38,088 bases of DNA from Candidatus Gottesmanbacteria bacterium RIFCSPHIGHO2_01_FULL_40_15 (GTDB lineage: Bacteria; Patescibacteriota; Microgenomatia; 2-02-FULL-39-11), in NCBI GenBank assembly GCA_001779115.1, contig MFJF01000018.1, forward strand, positions 1 through 38,088, read 5' to 3'. The notes under the pieces were generated by a model. It was given only the letters and a program-made list of their open reading frames with translations, was not told the origin of the DNA and made no database searches. The position numbers and the translations under genes were made by a program. Positions 1 to 36,183 of this stretch are shown one piece after another (the stretch's first letter is position 1; each line of letters starts with the position of its first letter).

Positions 1-962
1 AAAAATTAAATTACCGAATAGGAGAGGAAGTAGCGACGAGAAAAGCATACGGCAATGCTTTGAAAAGATTGGGTAGGGATTATCCTGATCTGGTTTCACT
101 GGACGGAGATGTCAAAAATTCCACATACGCGGAGATTTTTAAAGAGGCTTTCCCCGGGCGCTTTTTTGAAATGTTTATTGCCGAACAGAACATGGTCGGG
201 GCGGGAGTCGGAATGGCCAGACTCGGATTTATTCCCTTTGTTTCATCTTTTGCCTGTTTTTTAACCCGAGGGTTTGACCAGATTAGGATGGCCGGGATCG
301 GGGGAGCAAACGTTAAATTCTGCGGATCCCATGCCGGAGTATCCATCGGGGAAGACGGACCGTCACAAATGGGACTGGAGGATTTATCAATGTTCAGGTC
401 TGTTTTCGGATCGACTGTTTTATATCCCTCGGATGCGGTTTCAACGGAGAGACTGGTTGAGCAAATGTTAAAAACAGCAGGAATCTGTTATATCAGGACA
501 GCAAGACCGGCAACTAAAGTTATCTACGGCAATGATGAGAAATTTCCGGTCGGAGGAAGCAAAATTCATAAGGTCAAATCTCAAATGTCAAATGTTAAAT
601 CTAAGGTGATTATTGCGGCGGCAGGGATTACTTTTCTTGAGGCTATGAAGGCACAGGAGGAATTAATTAAAGAAGGAATTGAGGCGATTGTTGTTGATTG
701 CTATTCGATCAAGCCGATAGACGGAGAGACTTTAAGAAAATTAGCCGAAGAAGCAAATTATTTTATAACTGTTGAAGACCATTATGAAGCGGGAGGATTG
801 GGGGAGACGGTTCTTAATGTTTTCGCTTCCGATCCGGTTGTTAAGGTTCATTGCATGGCTGTTTCCAAGTTGCCAAGAAGCGGAAAACCGGCAGAACTAA
901 TGAATTTTGAGGAGATTGATGCTGCCTCGATAGTAAAAAAAGCCCGCAGCATATTACATTAA
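1..962 (+). CDS. tkt: Transketolase C-terminal part (pyrimidine-binding and C-terminal domains), truncated by window start
   Basis: The frame is open upstream of the listed TTG at 60, reading KLNYRIGEEVATRKAYGNALKRLG; then SLDGDVKNST, FIAEQNMVGAGVGMA and GSHAGVSIGEDGPSQMGLEDLSMFR, typical of transketolase. Confidence 0.93.
   Translation, partial: KLNYRIGEEVATRKAYGNALKRLGRDYPDLVSLDGDVKNSTYAEIFKEAFPGRFFEMFIAEQNMVGAGVGMARLGFIPFVSSFACFLTRGFDQIRMAGIGGANVKFCGSHAGVSIGEDGPSQMGLEDLSMFRSVFGSTVLYPSDAVSTERLVEQMLKTAGICYIRTARPATKVIYGNDEKFPVGGSKIHKVKSQMSNVKSKVIIAAAGITFLEAMKAQEELIKEGIEAIVVDCYSIKPIDGETLRKLAEEANYFITVEDHYEAGGLGETVLNVFASDPVVKVHCMAVSKLPRSGKPAELMNFEEIDAASIVKKARSILH
573..607 (+). repeat. Degenerate heptamer array inside transketolase CDS
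   Basis: gtcaaat ctcaaat gtcaaat gttaaat ctaaggt, period 7. Confidence 0.9.
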
Positions 963-993
963 CGTCCAGAAAATTAGCGCAGTAAAATTCAGT

Positions 994-1899
994 TTGATGA
1001 GCTTTCGGAATGCAGGAGAATATTTTGAAATTTCAATTACCCGCAAAAACAGCTGGATTTTAGCAAGCTCCGTTACTTTCATAATAATGTCTCTTTTTTC
1101 CCTGATTGAAAACTCTTTTTTCCGTGTTGAAGATTATTTTGTACCCCGGTCGATGATAACCATTGCCAAAAAAGCCGTAGCATGCGGCAATGGTAATCAG
1201 CCGGAGGAGCCAATGCCAACTTTAAAACTTATTGCGCAAAATAAAACCGATACCTGCAAACTTTTTATGGACGGGAGTGATTTGAAACAAATTTATGCTG
1301 AGATAAAGGAATTTAACAAGCTTGAGGAACTGCATCTGGCGTCAAACAGGTTAAAAACCCTTCCCAAGGAAATCGGTGATCTTCCCATAAAATATATTGA
1401 TTTGGGAAAAAACCAATTAGTGACAGTTCCCAAAGCGGTTCTGGAACTTGAGAAACTGCAGAAACTGGAAATCGGATTTAACCAGATCAGAACAATACCC
1501 GGAAACGTAAATAAGCTGACGGAATTAAGATTTGCCAGTTTTAACAAAAATTTAATTATCAAATTACCAAGAGCAATTGGGGAGCTTAAAAAACTTGAAT
1601 TTCTGGAACTCGGGGATAACAGAATTGTAATATTACCAAAAGAAATAGGCGGGCTTTCCAATCTTAAAGAATTGTATTTATACAATAACAGCCTGCATAA
1701 AATTCCGGTTGAAATCGGACTTTTGGAAAAATTGGAAATACTTGATTTAAGGAATAATCGGCTAAAAGATATACCCGAAGAAACAGGAAATCTGAAAAAT
1801 CTGAAACGTATTGAGCTGTCAGGGAATAATATTAATAATGAAGTAATAGAAATGTTGAAAAAAAGGCTACCCGATACAAAAATTGTCAACATAAAATGA
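994..1899 (+). CDS. Leucine-rich-repeat protein with N-terminal hydrophobic segment
   Basis: Repeated LxxLxLxxNxLxxLPxEIGxL units; hydrophobic stretch SWILASSVTFIIMSLFSL near the N-terminus. Confidence 0.85.
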   Translation: MMSFRNAGEYFEISITRKNSWILASSVTFIIMSLFSLIENSFFRVEDYFVPRSMITIAKKAVACGNGNQPEEPMPTLKLIAQNKTDTCKLFMDGSDLKQIYAEIKEFNKLEELHLASNRLKTLPKEIGDLPIKYIDLGKNQLVTVPKAVLELEKLQKLEIGFNQIRTIPGNVNKLTELRFASFNKNLIIKLPRAIGELKKLEFLELGDNRIVILPKEIGGLSNLKELYLYNNSLHKIPVEIGLLEKLEILDLRNNRLKDIPEETGNLKNLKRIELSGNNINNEVIEMLKKRLPDTKIVNIK

Positions 1900-3101
1900 A
1901 AAGGAGAAGAATAATATTACTTTTACCGGTAGTTCTTTTAGTTGTTTTAACAGGCTGTTTTTTGTTGATCAGGAATAAAAAACTTTATGATGACGAATAT
2001 CCCCATTATCAGCAGATTGAGGTATTTCTGAAAAGGGATTTAAGGATTGTTAAGGGTTTATCAAAACTGCCGGGCTATCCTTTGGCTGTTGCAGCATTGG
2101 GGGGACTTTTTAATTTGGAAAAATTACCAAACCTGCGGGCAGTTTCATCCGGATTATCTCTTTTGTCAATCGCGGTCTTTTTCATACTGGTGAATTTCAT
2201 AGACAGACAGGCAGGTATTATTAAAACACTGCAATATATCCTTCTTCCCATCCAGTTTCCTTTTTTATTTCTTTTGTACAGCGAGGGGTTTTCCAACCTG
2301 GCAGTATTTCTGATGATTTATTTTGTTTTGAAGAAAAAGTATTTTCTTGGGGGGATTCTCAGTATTCTCGCTGTAATTATTAGGCAAACCAATATTATTT
2401 GGGCGGCAATGATGTTGATGATTGGTTATTTATTGGAATACGGTCCGGCAATTAACCGGGATTTCTTGAGAAAATATTTATCCAAGACATTTATTTTTGT
2501 TGCCGGTTTTTTACTTTTTATCCTGTTCGTTTATCTGAATAAGGGAGTAGCCGTCAGGGACCAGGCTGCCATGCCGACTTTCCAGGTTCACGCCGGAAGC
2601 GTCTATTGGACACTTTTTTTACTGTTTATTTTATTTTTACCCGTTCATTTAGCCGCCACAGGCAGGATTGCCCGCAGAATTGCCCGGAACCGGTTAATAC
2701 TTATTCCTCTGATTATTTTTGTTATTACCGGCGTTATTACTTTTAATAATCTTCATCCGATGAATACGAGCTGGGAGCATTTAAGAAACAGAATCCTTCT
2801 ATTATATTCTTCGGATTTATGGAAAAGAACAGCTTTTTTTATCTTCATTTCATATACCGTTTTATCATTAAGCACCATAAAATTAATAAAAAAAGAATAT
2901 TATCTTTTATATCCGTTTGCATTTTTATCAGTTTTCCCTTTTTGGCTGATTGAATCAAGATACAGCCTGACGGCAATTATTCTTTTTATGCTGTTTAGAA
3001 AAAGCGGGAACAGGAAATTGGAATATCTTATCCTGGCAATTTTTGCCGTGTTCAGCCTTATATTTTTTAAGGGGTACCTGAACCGCGATTTTTATTTGTG
3101 A
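1896..3101 (+). CDS. Polytopic membrane protein resembling DIE2/ALG10-family glucosyltransferase
   Basis: Many TM segments; DDEYPHYQQIEVFLK...LPGYPLAV near the N-terminus and VIIRQTNIIWAAMM resemble ALG10 motifs. Start overlaps the LRR stop (ATGA). Confidence 0.55.
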   Translation: MKRRRIILLLPVVLLVVLTGCFLLIRNKKLYDDEYPHYQQIEVFLKRDLRIVKGLSKLPGYPLAVAALGGLFNLEKLPNLRAVSSGLSLLSIAVFFILVNFIDRQAGIIKTLQYILLPIQFPFLFLLYSEGFSNLAVFLMIYFVLKKKYFLGGILSILAVIIRQTNIIWAAMMLMIGYLLEYGPAINRDFLRKYLSKTFIFVAGFLLFILFVYLNKGVAVRDQAAMPTFQVHAGSVYWTLFLLFILFLPVHLAATGRIARRIARNRLILIPLIIFVITGVITFNNLHPMNTSWEHLRNRILLLYSSDLWKRTAFFIFISYTVLSLSTIKLIKKEYYLLYPFAFLSVFPFWLIESRYSLTAIILFMLFRKSGNRKLEYLILAIFAVFSLIFFKGYLNRDFYL

Positions 3102-3130
3102 AAAGAGGAAACGGTTCGTTTTAAAAAAAT

Positions 3131-3143
3131 GCCGCACAGAGAA
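3131..3143 (+). repeat. Left copy of 13-bp inverted repeat GCCGCACAGAGAA
   Basis: Exact reverse complement of 4289-4301 (TTCTCTGTGCGGC). Confidence 0.6.
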
Positions 3144-3238
3144 AACTGAAAAATAATAAAAGGTTCGCTCCTTAAACCCGCTTTTTGGGCTAAGGAACGT
3201 AAATTAGTTAAAATTATTTCAGTTTTTGGCTTAAGACT

Positions 3239-3349
3239 TTTGGAGCGGGGGTATGTTTTTGCGCGTTACCGGGAAGTCATCCGGGTAAACCTGCATCCGG
3301 CAGGCTTTATGACTTCATCCCGATCTATCGGGACGCATATCCGTTTAAG
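3239..3349. repeat. Structured interspersed repeat, copy A (~111 bp)
   Basis: ~93% identical by eye to 3692-3801; can fold as TGCG/CGCA, GAAGTCAT/ATGACTTC, CCTGC/GCAGG and CCCGA/TCGGG helices. Confidence 0.85.
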
Positions 3350-3419
3350 CATTTTCCTTCTTTACTCCTCTTAGGAAGGTGATATTGAGTTTTGACGGAC
3401 CCCCATGTGAAATTAAATA

Positions 3420-3665
3420 TTAAAGAAGAAACGGTAGTGACCAAAACGGTACCATAGATCCTAGTAAGGAACCAAGGAAAACACCGAAAGTCACAAGTGA
3501 AATACAAAAAATAACTTCACCGTTACTTCTGGCAAAGGCAAGCGCAGTTAATAGTGCAAGAATTACTAATCCGATAATGGCAAGGATTGGTTTTCCTACA
3601 ATAAAACCTATTAGAAAGCCTACGCTGAAGGCAAGAATATAATTTTGGAACTGGTGCATGTTCAT
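3420..3665 (-). CDS. Small glycine-rich membrane protein (81 aa), paralog of 3832-4071
   Basis: MNMHQFQNYILAFSVGFLIGFIVGKPILAIIGLVILALL...; aligns along its length with the neighbouring ORF. The longer upstream ORF start runs through the repeat and is not supported. Confidence 0.6.
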   Translation of the reverse strand: MNMHQFQNYILAFSVGFLIGFIVGKPILAIIGLVILALLTALAFARSNGEVIFCISLVTFGVFLGSLLGSMVPFWSLPFLL

Positions 3666-3691
3666 TTTTTTCTTCTTTTTTTCCAAATATC

Positions 3692-3801
3692 TTTGGAGCG
3701 GGGGCATGTTTTTGCGCGTTACCGGGAAGTCATCCGGGGAAACCTGCATCCGGCAGGCAAATGACTTCATCCCGAACCATCGGGACGCATATCCGTATAA
3801 G
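3692..3801. repeat. Structured interspersed repeat, copy B (~110 bp)
   Basis: See copy A. Confidence 0.85.
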
Positions 3802-3831
3802 TTTCCAGAGCGGACCCCCAAATACACTGCT

Positions 3832-4071
3832 TCAAAAGATTAACTGAAGCAGTGCCGAAAACGGCAACCGTGAACCGGAAAGGCTACCAAAAAGAACACC
3901 CAGGCCAAATCCGGCGACAAAACCGGTTTTGGTTCCGGCTTTGCTAATTAACGCTAGGACTACTGTAATAAGCAGGATAATAAAACCAAGCCAAGCTAAA
4001 ACAGCCTGACCTAAAGCAAATCCGATTATCATCCCGCTTACAAATCCCCAAAATTCGGGGTTTTTTTTCAT
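3832..4071 (-). CDS. Small glycine-rich membrane protein (79 aa)
   Basis: MKKNPEFWGFVSGMIIGFALGQAVLAWLGFIILLITVVLAL...; two or three hydrophobic segments; GAAAGGA upstream of ATG. Confidence 0.65.
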   Translation of the reverse strand: MKKNPEFWGFVSGMIIGFALGQAVLAWLGFIILLITVVLALISKAGTKTGFVAGFGLGVLFGSLSGSRLPFSALLQLIF

Positions 4072-4115
4072 TTTTTATTTTTTCCTTTCTGAAGTGTCAC
4101 CCCGGCACCCGGATT

Positions 4116-4150
4116 CTCTACCGGAAATTATTTTCCGAATAGAGTTTTTT
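4116..4150 (+). terminator. Rho-independent terminator
   Basis: CTCTA-c-CGGAAA-ttat-TTTCCG-aa-TAGAG followed by TTTTTT. Confidence 0.75.
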
Positions 4151-4275
4151 CAGACAGAGGCTTCCCTGTTCACAAATTGTCCCCGACAATTTAAGGGGAT
4201 AGTTAGTCTGGCTGATGGGGAGAAAGCCGGCCGGAAATTTCCCTATTTTTAAGACCGATTATCTCCCCAACAGCT
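4151..4275. other. Candidate structured RNA / leader region
   Basis: CAGAC(4152-4156)/GTCTG(4206-4210) enclosing AAATTGTccccgACAATTT, directly abutting GCTGaTGGGGAGA(4211-4223)/TCTCCCCAaCAGC(4262-4274). Confidence 0.5.
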
Positions 4276-4288
4276 TATTTAGGATATA

Positions 4289-4301
4289 TTCTCTGTGCGG
4301 C
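4289..4301 (+). repeat. Right copy of 13-bp inverted repeat
   Basis: TTCTCTGTGCGGC, reverse complement of 3131-3143. Confidence 0.6.
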
Positions 4302-4461
4302 TTGTTAAAGAGCTACCGTTTTAATGAATAACACAGTAATAAAAGATGAATGTAAGAAAGAGAGTCTTACCCAATTCTTATGTAAACTTCAATATCCTTT
4401 TATGCGGTTACCTGATGATTACTCAAATCCATTTTATAAAAATTTATCAGGGAGACAGATA

Positions 4462-4845
4462 ATGATCAGAGGCATAGATTCAGTTCTATTATTCAGCAAA
4501 GATCCGAAAAATTTGGCTGATTTTTACAAACAAAAAGTCGGACTTGAAGTGGAGCTGGTGGGGGAATACGGAAATAATTTTGAAGAGAAGATATTCGGGG
4601 TGAAGGCCGGAGATTCAAATCTCCTGTCAATTCTTCACCATTCGAAACTTAAAGGACCGAATAAGGAACCGGAGCGGTTTATGATTAATTTTGAGGTTGA
4701 CAATATTGAGGAAACGGTTTCTAAACTGGAGAAAAACGGGGTTAAAAAAATACAGGAGATTTACCATGTGGAAGATTACGGAAAAATTGCCACGTTTGAA
4801 GATCCCGACAAAAACTACTTCCAGATGGTGCAGGTAAGGTCATAA
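4462..4845 (+). CDS. VOC (glyoxalase/bleomycin-resistance/dioxygenase) superfamily protein
   Basis: IDSVLLFSKDPKNLADFYKQKVGLEVE ... FEVDNIEETVSKLEKNGVK ... FEDPDKNYFQMVQ. The ORF extends to 4324 but the fold starts near the Met at 4462. Confidence 0.85.
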   Translation: MIRGIDSVLLFSKDPKNLADFYKQKVGLEVELVGEYGNNFEEKIFGVKAGDSNLLSILHHSKLKGPNKEPERFMINFEVDNIEETVSKLEKNGVKKIQEIYHVEDYGKIATFEDPDKNYFQMVQVRS

Positions 4846-23449: not shown

Positions 23450-23998
23450 CTAATCCGGTTTTTTGTTTTTAATATTATTTAAAACAATAACGATTTTTTG
23501 GAGATTCCAATTAAGACTGTTATGAAGGCCGTAAATCGGTGATTTCAATCCGGCGAAAAGAGTGGCGAGAAGTATGTCTTTTGACGGCAATATTGCCAAC
23601 TTATCAAAATCTGCCGAAGTTGTCAGTTTATTTTCCAGAACTCCGATTCTAACTTTAGGAAGAGAGAAGCTTTTGGAGAAGTTAAAGAGTTCTTTGACGG
23701 CAGCCAGAGGGTCACCGTAAGCAAAAAAAGCGGCATTTGAATCTTTCAGGGACTCGTATAATTTCTCTTTATTTTCTTTTGTTGTTTTTTCAGTTTTATC
23801 AAGGGATATTTTAAAAAGAGTATTTTTTACGACAAGAAGATCAGCTTCAACTTTTTTGAGAGATTTTCTTAAATCTTCAAGCTGCTTATGGGTAAGACCT
23901 TTGTAATCGGTAAGAAAGAATGCCCGGGCTTTATTGAGTTTTCCGGTTACTTTTTCAACGATTTCGGCTTTTTTCGGATGAGGTGTTTTTCTTTTCAT
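23450..23998 (-). CDS. rplJ: 50S ribosomal protein L10
   Basis: KAEIVEKVTGKLNKARAFFLTDYKGLTHKQLEDLRKSLKKVEADLLVVKNTL. Confidence 0.95.
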   Translation of the reverse strand: MKRKTPHPKKAEIVEKVTGKLNKARAFFLTDYKGLTHKQLEDLRKSLKKVEADLLVVKNTLFKISLDKTEKTTKENKEKLYESLKDSNAAFFAYGDPLAAVKELFNFSKSFSLPKVRIGVLENKLTTSADFDKLAILPSKDILLATLFAGLKSPIYGLHNSLNWNLQKIVIVLNNIKNKKPD

Positions 23999-24000
23999 AA

Positions 24001-24097
24001 AAAAATCCCTACCTACAGGGATTCAGATAATATTAAATCTTTTTCCCTCGGTAGGCTATTTTTAACCCCGCTTAGCGGGGACCTACTGTCTTTAGGA
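24001..24097 (-). promoter_or_regulatory. Ribosomal protein L10 leader RNA with terminal hairpin
   Basis: Minus strand: AAAGACAGTAGGTCCCCGCTAAGCGGGGTTAAAAATAGCCTACCGAGGG ... AATCCCTGTAGGTAGGGATTTTTT-ATG. Confidence 0.8.
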
Positions 24098-24152
24098 TCC
24101 AATGATTGTAGCATATGTCCGAATCAGATGGCAAGAAGAAGAAAAGTTAATT

Positions 24153-36085: not shown

Positions 36086-36183
36086 TTTACGGATTTGTAA
36101 AAAATCGAGCTCAACCCCGATGTCGCTTTGCTTATCGGGATTTCGAATTATAATTTACGGATTTGTAAAAAATCGAGCTCAAC
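36086..36183. repeat. 30-bp direct repeat (36086-36115 / 36154-36183) from nusG 3' end flanking a hairpin
   Basis: TTTACGGATTTGTAAAAAATCGAGCTCAAC twice, 68 nt apart; CCCGAT...ATCGGG between. Confidence 0.9.

Follow-up and report, generated by a model that had tools for sequence, protein, structure and literature searches.

The 38,088-nt window (the whole stretch of DNA analyzed) carries, within a segment specific to its lineage, two genes for small proteins, each followed by a copy of the same noncoding element. Read along the minus strand, gene B comes first, followed by element copy E2, gene A, element copy E1, and a terminator-like hairpin (Table 1); only 26 nt separate E2 from the start of gene A. 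The transketolase-like gene (window positions 60 to 962) and the glyoxalase gene (4324 to 4845) bound the segment. In this genome, the gap between them is ~3.4 kb and holds the B-E2-A-E1 unit together with genes for a leucine-rich-repeat protein and a DIE2/ALG10-like membrane protein. In one of two relatives, the gap is ~0.2 kb; in the other, it is ~0.35 kb, and an additional copy of glyoxalase is present. Because both relatives have the two bordering genes close together, we consider the segment lineage specific. The leucine-rich-repeat protein (994 to 1896) resembles phage family phrog_6688 (E value, 5.7e-48).

TABLE 1 Features of the B-E2-A-E1 unit and the segment that holds it (positions in the window)
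Feature	Position	Strand	Remarks
Lineage-specific segment holding whole unit	963-4323		Between transketolase-like and glyoxalase genes; comparison with relatives
Terminator-like hairpin 3' of E1	3161-3199	minus	GTTCCTTAGCCC...GGGTTTAAGGAGCGAACC, then T-rich; found by reading the sequence, missed by a simple scan
E1 core	3239-3349	minus	3' of gene A; similarity searches and alignment
Unit 1 P4 loop	3350-3395	minus	Diverged, long, with its own small hairpin; by alignment unlike the short loop at 3802-3810
Far-side box CGGACCCCCA, unit 1	3396-3405	minus	P0 with GGGGG 3247-3251; one P4 arm, partner 3340-3343
Gene A	3423-3665	minus	81-aa hydrophobic small membrane protein; stop codon 3420-3422, 15 nt before E1 box
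E2 core	3692-3801	minus	Between gene B and gene A; similarity searches and alignment
Far-side box CGGACCCCCA, unit 2	3811-3820	minus	P0 with GGGGG 3700-3704; one P4 arm, partner 3792-3795
Gene B	3835-4071	minus	79-aa paralogue of gene A; stop codon 3832-3834, 12 nt before E2 box

Two paralogous genes and a better-conserved element

Genes A and B are paralogous, with 36% identity over 66 aa (E value, 2e-9). Their nucleotide identity by codon position (45, 65, and 27%) follows the pattern of coding sequence, and third positions, at chance level, are therefore saturated. Neither protein (79 to 81 aa) matched any family above its cut-off, and searches for relatives of the two genes outside their own genome returned marginal matches only. 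On the minus strand, hairpins are plentiful in the leader of gene B (window 4090 to 4290); one of them has arms at 4211 to 4237 and 4248 to 4274.

The original prediction, made from the sequence of this region, described a duplicated element of ~110 bp, ~93% identical between copies, with about eight differences. Alignment bears this out: the two cores are 93% identical and differ in eight columns (6, 25, 27, 43 to 45, 65, and 99 in A1 numbering), one of which is a 1-nt gap. The copies lie in direct orientation, 453 bp apart, and sequence search identified no others in the 1.33-Mb genome. The element has a GC content of 52 to 55%, compared with 40% for the window. The 1-nt gap and stops in most frames argue against its encoding protein, and we reject that reading.

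Conservation extends beyond the limits first drawn. A 10-nt box, CGGACCCCCA, is the same in both units and is separated from the core by a fully diverged loop; it pairs with the element's own GGGGG to form an outer helix, P0, and contributes one arm of a further helix, P4. Read on the minus strand, each element thus begins with TGGGGGTCCG 12 to 15 nt past the stop codon, continues through a loop unrelated between the units (long in unit 1 and short in unit 2), and ends with the conserved core, the last bases of which are CCCCCGCTCC. The conserved stretches on either side of the diverged loop are precisely those that pair (P0 probability of 0.92 to 0.98 and P4 probability of 0.32 to 0.61, minus strand). 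The duplication, its placement behind each gene, the contrast between a conserved element and diverged genes, and the stability of the joint fold (below) are what the analysis shows. The genomic setting, which did not form part of the original prediction, somewhat strengthens that observation.

Predicted fold and tests for selection on structure

For the extended units on the minus strand, mean pair probabilities in E1 and E2, respectively, were 0.98 and 0.92 for P0, 0.94 and 0.97 for P3, 0.99 and 0.92 for P2a, 0.61 and 0.32 for P4, 0.07 and 0.96 for P2, and 0.12 and 0.13 for P1. The folding model thus strongly predicts two hairpins (P3 and P2a) and the outer closing helix P0 but not a three-way junction closed by P1, the mean pair probability of which ranged from 0.08 to 0.38. 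In E1, P2 (pair probability, 0.07 to 0.16) loses to a rival hairpin, TACCCGGATGACTTCCCGGTA, which in E2 is broken by an A-to-C change; the competition could reflect a switch or merely noise. Of the three-way junction originally drawn from P1, P2, P2a, and P3, every arm is present in both copies, and P3 and P2a are strong, but P1 is weak, P2 is unsettled in E1, P0 was overlooked, and the exact arrangement is not the predicted minimum.

The central argument for selection had been that all differences between the copies fall in loops or junctions. No differing column indeed lies within the P1, P2, P2a, and P3 helices as drawn, whereas an independently computed consensus fold pairs one difference on the minus strand but leaves all of them unpaired on the plus strand. 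The naive probability of sparing the drawn helices is 0.5% when the whole element is considered and 0.2% when only the part inside P1 is counted, a test that disregards the fold having been picked after the copies were seen. When the fold was rederived for mutated shuffles, 39% of cases on the minus strand and 26% on the plus strand had no paired difference; for the real sequence carrying randomly positioned mutations, the values were 42% (minus) and 23% (plus). The loop argument follows largely from how the fold was chosen and, taken alone, is weak.

Other measures are more favorable. The consensus fold computed jointly from the two copies has greater stability than those of mutated shuffles (minus strand, P = 0.004, z = -3.2; plus strand, P = 0.018, z = -2.3) and, on the minus strand, than that of the real sequence with randomly placed mutations (0.032, versus 0.122 on the plus strand). 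These controls support the minus strand better than the plus strand, and the difference adjoining P0 retains a U-G or U-A option on the minus strand but becomes C-A on the plus strand. Single-copy folding z-scores were modest (-0.5 to -2.5), and E1 folds well on the plus strand too. No compensatory change was found in the comparison of the two copies. The claim of selection on structure is therefore only partly upheld: the 93% identity beside saturated genes, the joint fold, and the complementary boxes speak for it, while the lack of compensatory changes between two copies and a junction that is not the minimum limit that support. We regard such selection as plausible and favor it over a plain recent copy because the conserved ends surround a diverged loop.

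Searches for further copies

In the collections searched, the element was seen in this genome only. No copy was found among 98 relatives, in a DNA search of 384 class genomes with the element core, in orthologous neighborhoods, among viral contigs, phages, and plasmids, or in GTDB contigs searched by helix pattern. The whole 1.17-kb unit yielded merely short, scattered matches of 21 to 48 nt in the 384 class genomes, and a covariance model run against 384 phylum genomes and the family gave best outside hits of 20 to 22 bits, which is the level of chance. The search of relatives proposed at the outset, with the element and with a covariance model, yielded no further copy. Across positions 3100 to 4350, no Rfam 15 family exceeded its gathering threshold and the hits were at chance level, in agreement with the initial statement that the element was not recognizable as a known family.

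A candidate RNA element and its alternatives

We propose, at roughly even odds (a probability of about 0.5), that the element is a structured RNA, specific to this lineage, that lies in the 3' region of both paralogous genes for small membrane proteins. It would form an RNA domain of ~125 to 160 nt, in sense within a two-gene transcript B-E2-A-E1, immediately past each stop codon. An ancient tandem duplication would have copied the gene-plus-element unit; the genes and the P4 loop would then have diverged while the remainder of the element was held, its sequence presumably kept because the fold (closing helix P0, P4 with its free loop, P3, and P2/P2a) is functional. Transcription, strand, and function are what we infer here. 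Since the position behind each gene is shared and E1 is followed only by the terminator-like hairpin, we suggest that the element would act on the upstream message, through protection or processing of the mRNA 3' end or by serving there as a binding site for a protein or RNA. We think it less likely that it controls a downstream gene, although E2, given its short distance to the start of gene A, may exert leader-like control of that gene.

The simplest history is that gene and element were duplicated together, in tandem, at an early date. Gene conversion could explain the identity of the cores but less easily that of a box beyond a diverged loop. This bears on the possibility that the element is a nonfunctional repeat, a spacer behind tandem genes that was recently copied or overwritten by conversion, so that 93% identity would measure age rather than selection. 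Two nearby copies in direct orientation, with few differences, no compensatory change, and a loop pattern frequent by chance, fit this explanation; yet the conversion tract must have skipped the loop, or the loop must later have been replaced in one copy, and the mutual pairing of the conserved parts and a joint fold more stable than controls count against it. We consider it unlikely.

Rather less probable is that the element is a folded-DNA recombination or transposition site (an integron attC site, a REP/RAYT palindrome, or a MITE), the mobile unit being either gene A or the gene-plus-element. The gene-element-gene-element layout recalls a cassette array, the segment holding the unit is missing at the same junction in relatives, and three Y1 (IS200/RAYT-type) transposases are encoded elsewhere in the genome. 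A perfect 13-bp inverted repeat, GCCGCACAGAGAA, with no further sites in the genome, also brackets the unit (3131 to 3143 and 4289 to 4301). This repeat is borderline and not proof of a mobile element, because 38 of 1,000 shuffles (3.8%) contained one as long and the window holds four other such pairs. Integron attC sites are foldable and trail each gene in a tandem array, and the element shares with them its place after each gene, a comparable length, and foldability. However, the best stretch matching integron integrase (IntI, TIGR02249) in the genome scored 82.7 bits against a curated cut-off of 265, and sub-cut-off hits were likewise obtained in all 14 control genomes; the hits here belong to two tyrosine recombinases of the ordinary kind, and in at least one the alignment lacked the insert region. 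With the integrase below cut-off, no paired RYYYAAC/GTTRRRY core sites, and a branched fold in place of one long imperfect hairpin, the element does not qualify as an attC site. Nor does it qualify as part of a REP/RAYT system, which is marked by multicopy short palindromes that also flank a Y1 gene; the genome has two copies only, and the surroundings of the three Y1 genes, examined to ~1.5 kb, contained nothing similar. As for a MITE, there are two copies, the borderline repeat, and no clear target duplication.

Ldr/Rdl and Ibs/Sib are tandem type I toxin-antitoxin repeats. They resemble the present locus in pairing, in tandem units, a gene for a small hydrophobic protein with a conserved RNA-like element. 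Were the locus of this kind, the element would be the overlap between the 3' ends of convergent transcripts, one encoding the protein and the other an antisense RNA. The duplicated membrane-protein genes with their structured tails and the good plus-strand fold of E1 fit this arrangement, but proteins A and B exceed the length usual for type I toxins, no family matches them above its cut-off, the antisense transcript is hypothetical, a promoter-like match on the plus strand near E1 does not exceed chance expectation, and the plus strand is the less supported of the two. We judge this explanation highly improbable.

The structured-RNA reading invites comparison with REP and BIME sequences, which in polycistronic mRNAs form mRNA-stabilizing structures at 3' ends or between cistrons; REPs are short, simple palindromes present in tens to hundreds of copies. 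The element is likewise structured, GC rich, and placed just past stop codons, between genes of one putative transcript, but it is branched, spans 125 to 160 nt, and occurs twice. Orphan structured RNA candidates reported from GC-rich intergenic regions were based on many compared homologues and share with the element GC-rich conserved intergenic sequence, a predicted fold, and an unassigned role (PMC2864571, PMC8723152, and PMC11109978). The element is represented by two paralogous copies in one genome.

We hold only tentatively the further idea of a new structured RNA class of a single lineage that travels with a small membrane-protein gene family, acts on it from the 3' side, and outconserves its proteins. 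If real, the element, at present a two-copy candidate, would be an RNA more conserved than the genes ahead of it in a small-genome bacterial lineage, and a starting point for defining a new motif and for addressing the role of orphan small membrane proteins.

Other observations in the window

Elsewhere in the window, a ribosomal protein L10 leader (RF00557) was detected at 23991 to 24113 on the minus strand (47.2 bits). A perfect 30-bp direct repeat occupies positions 36086 to 36115 and 36154 to 36183, 68 bp apart.
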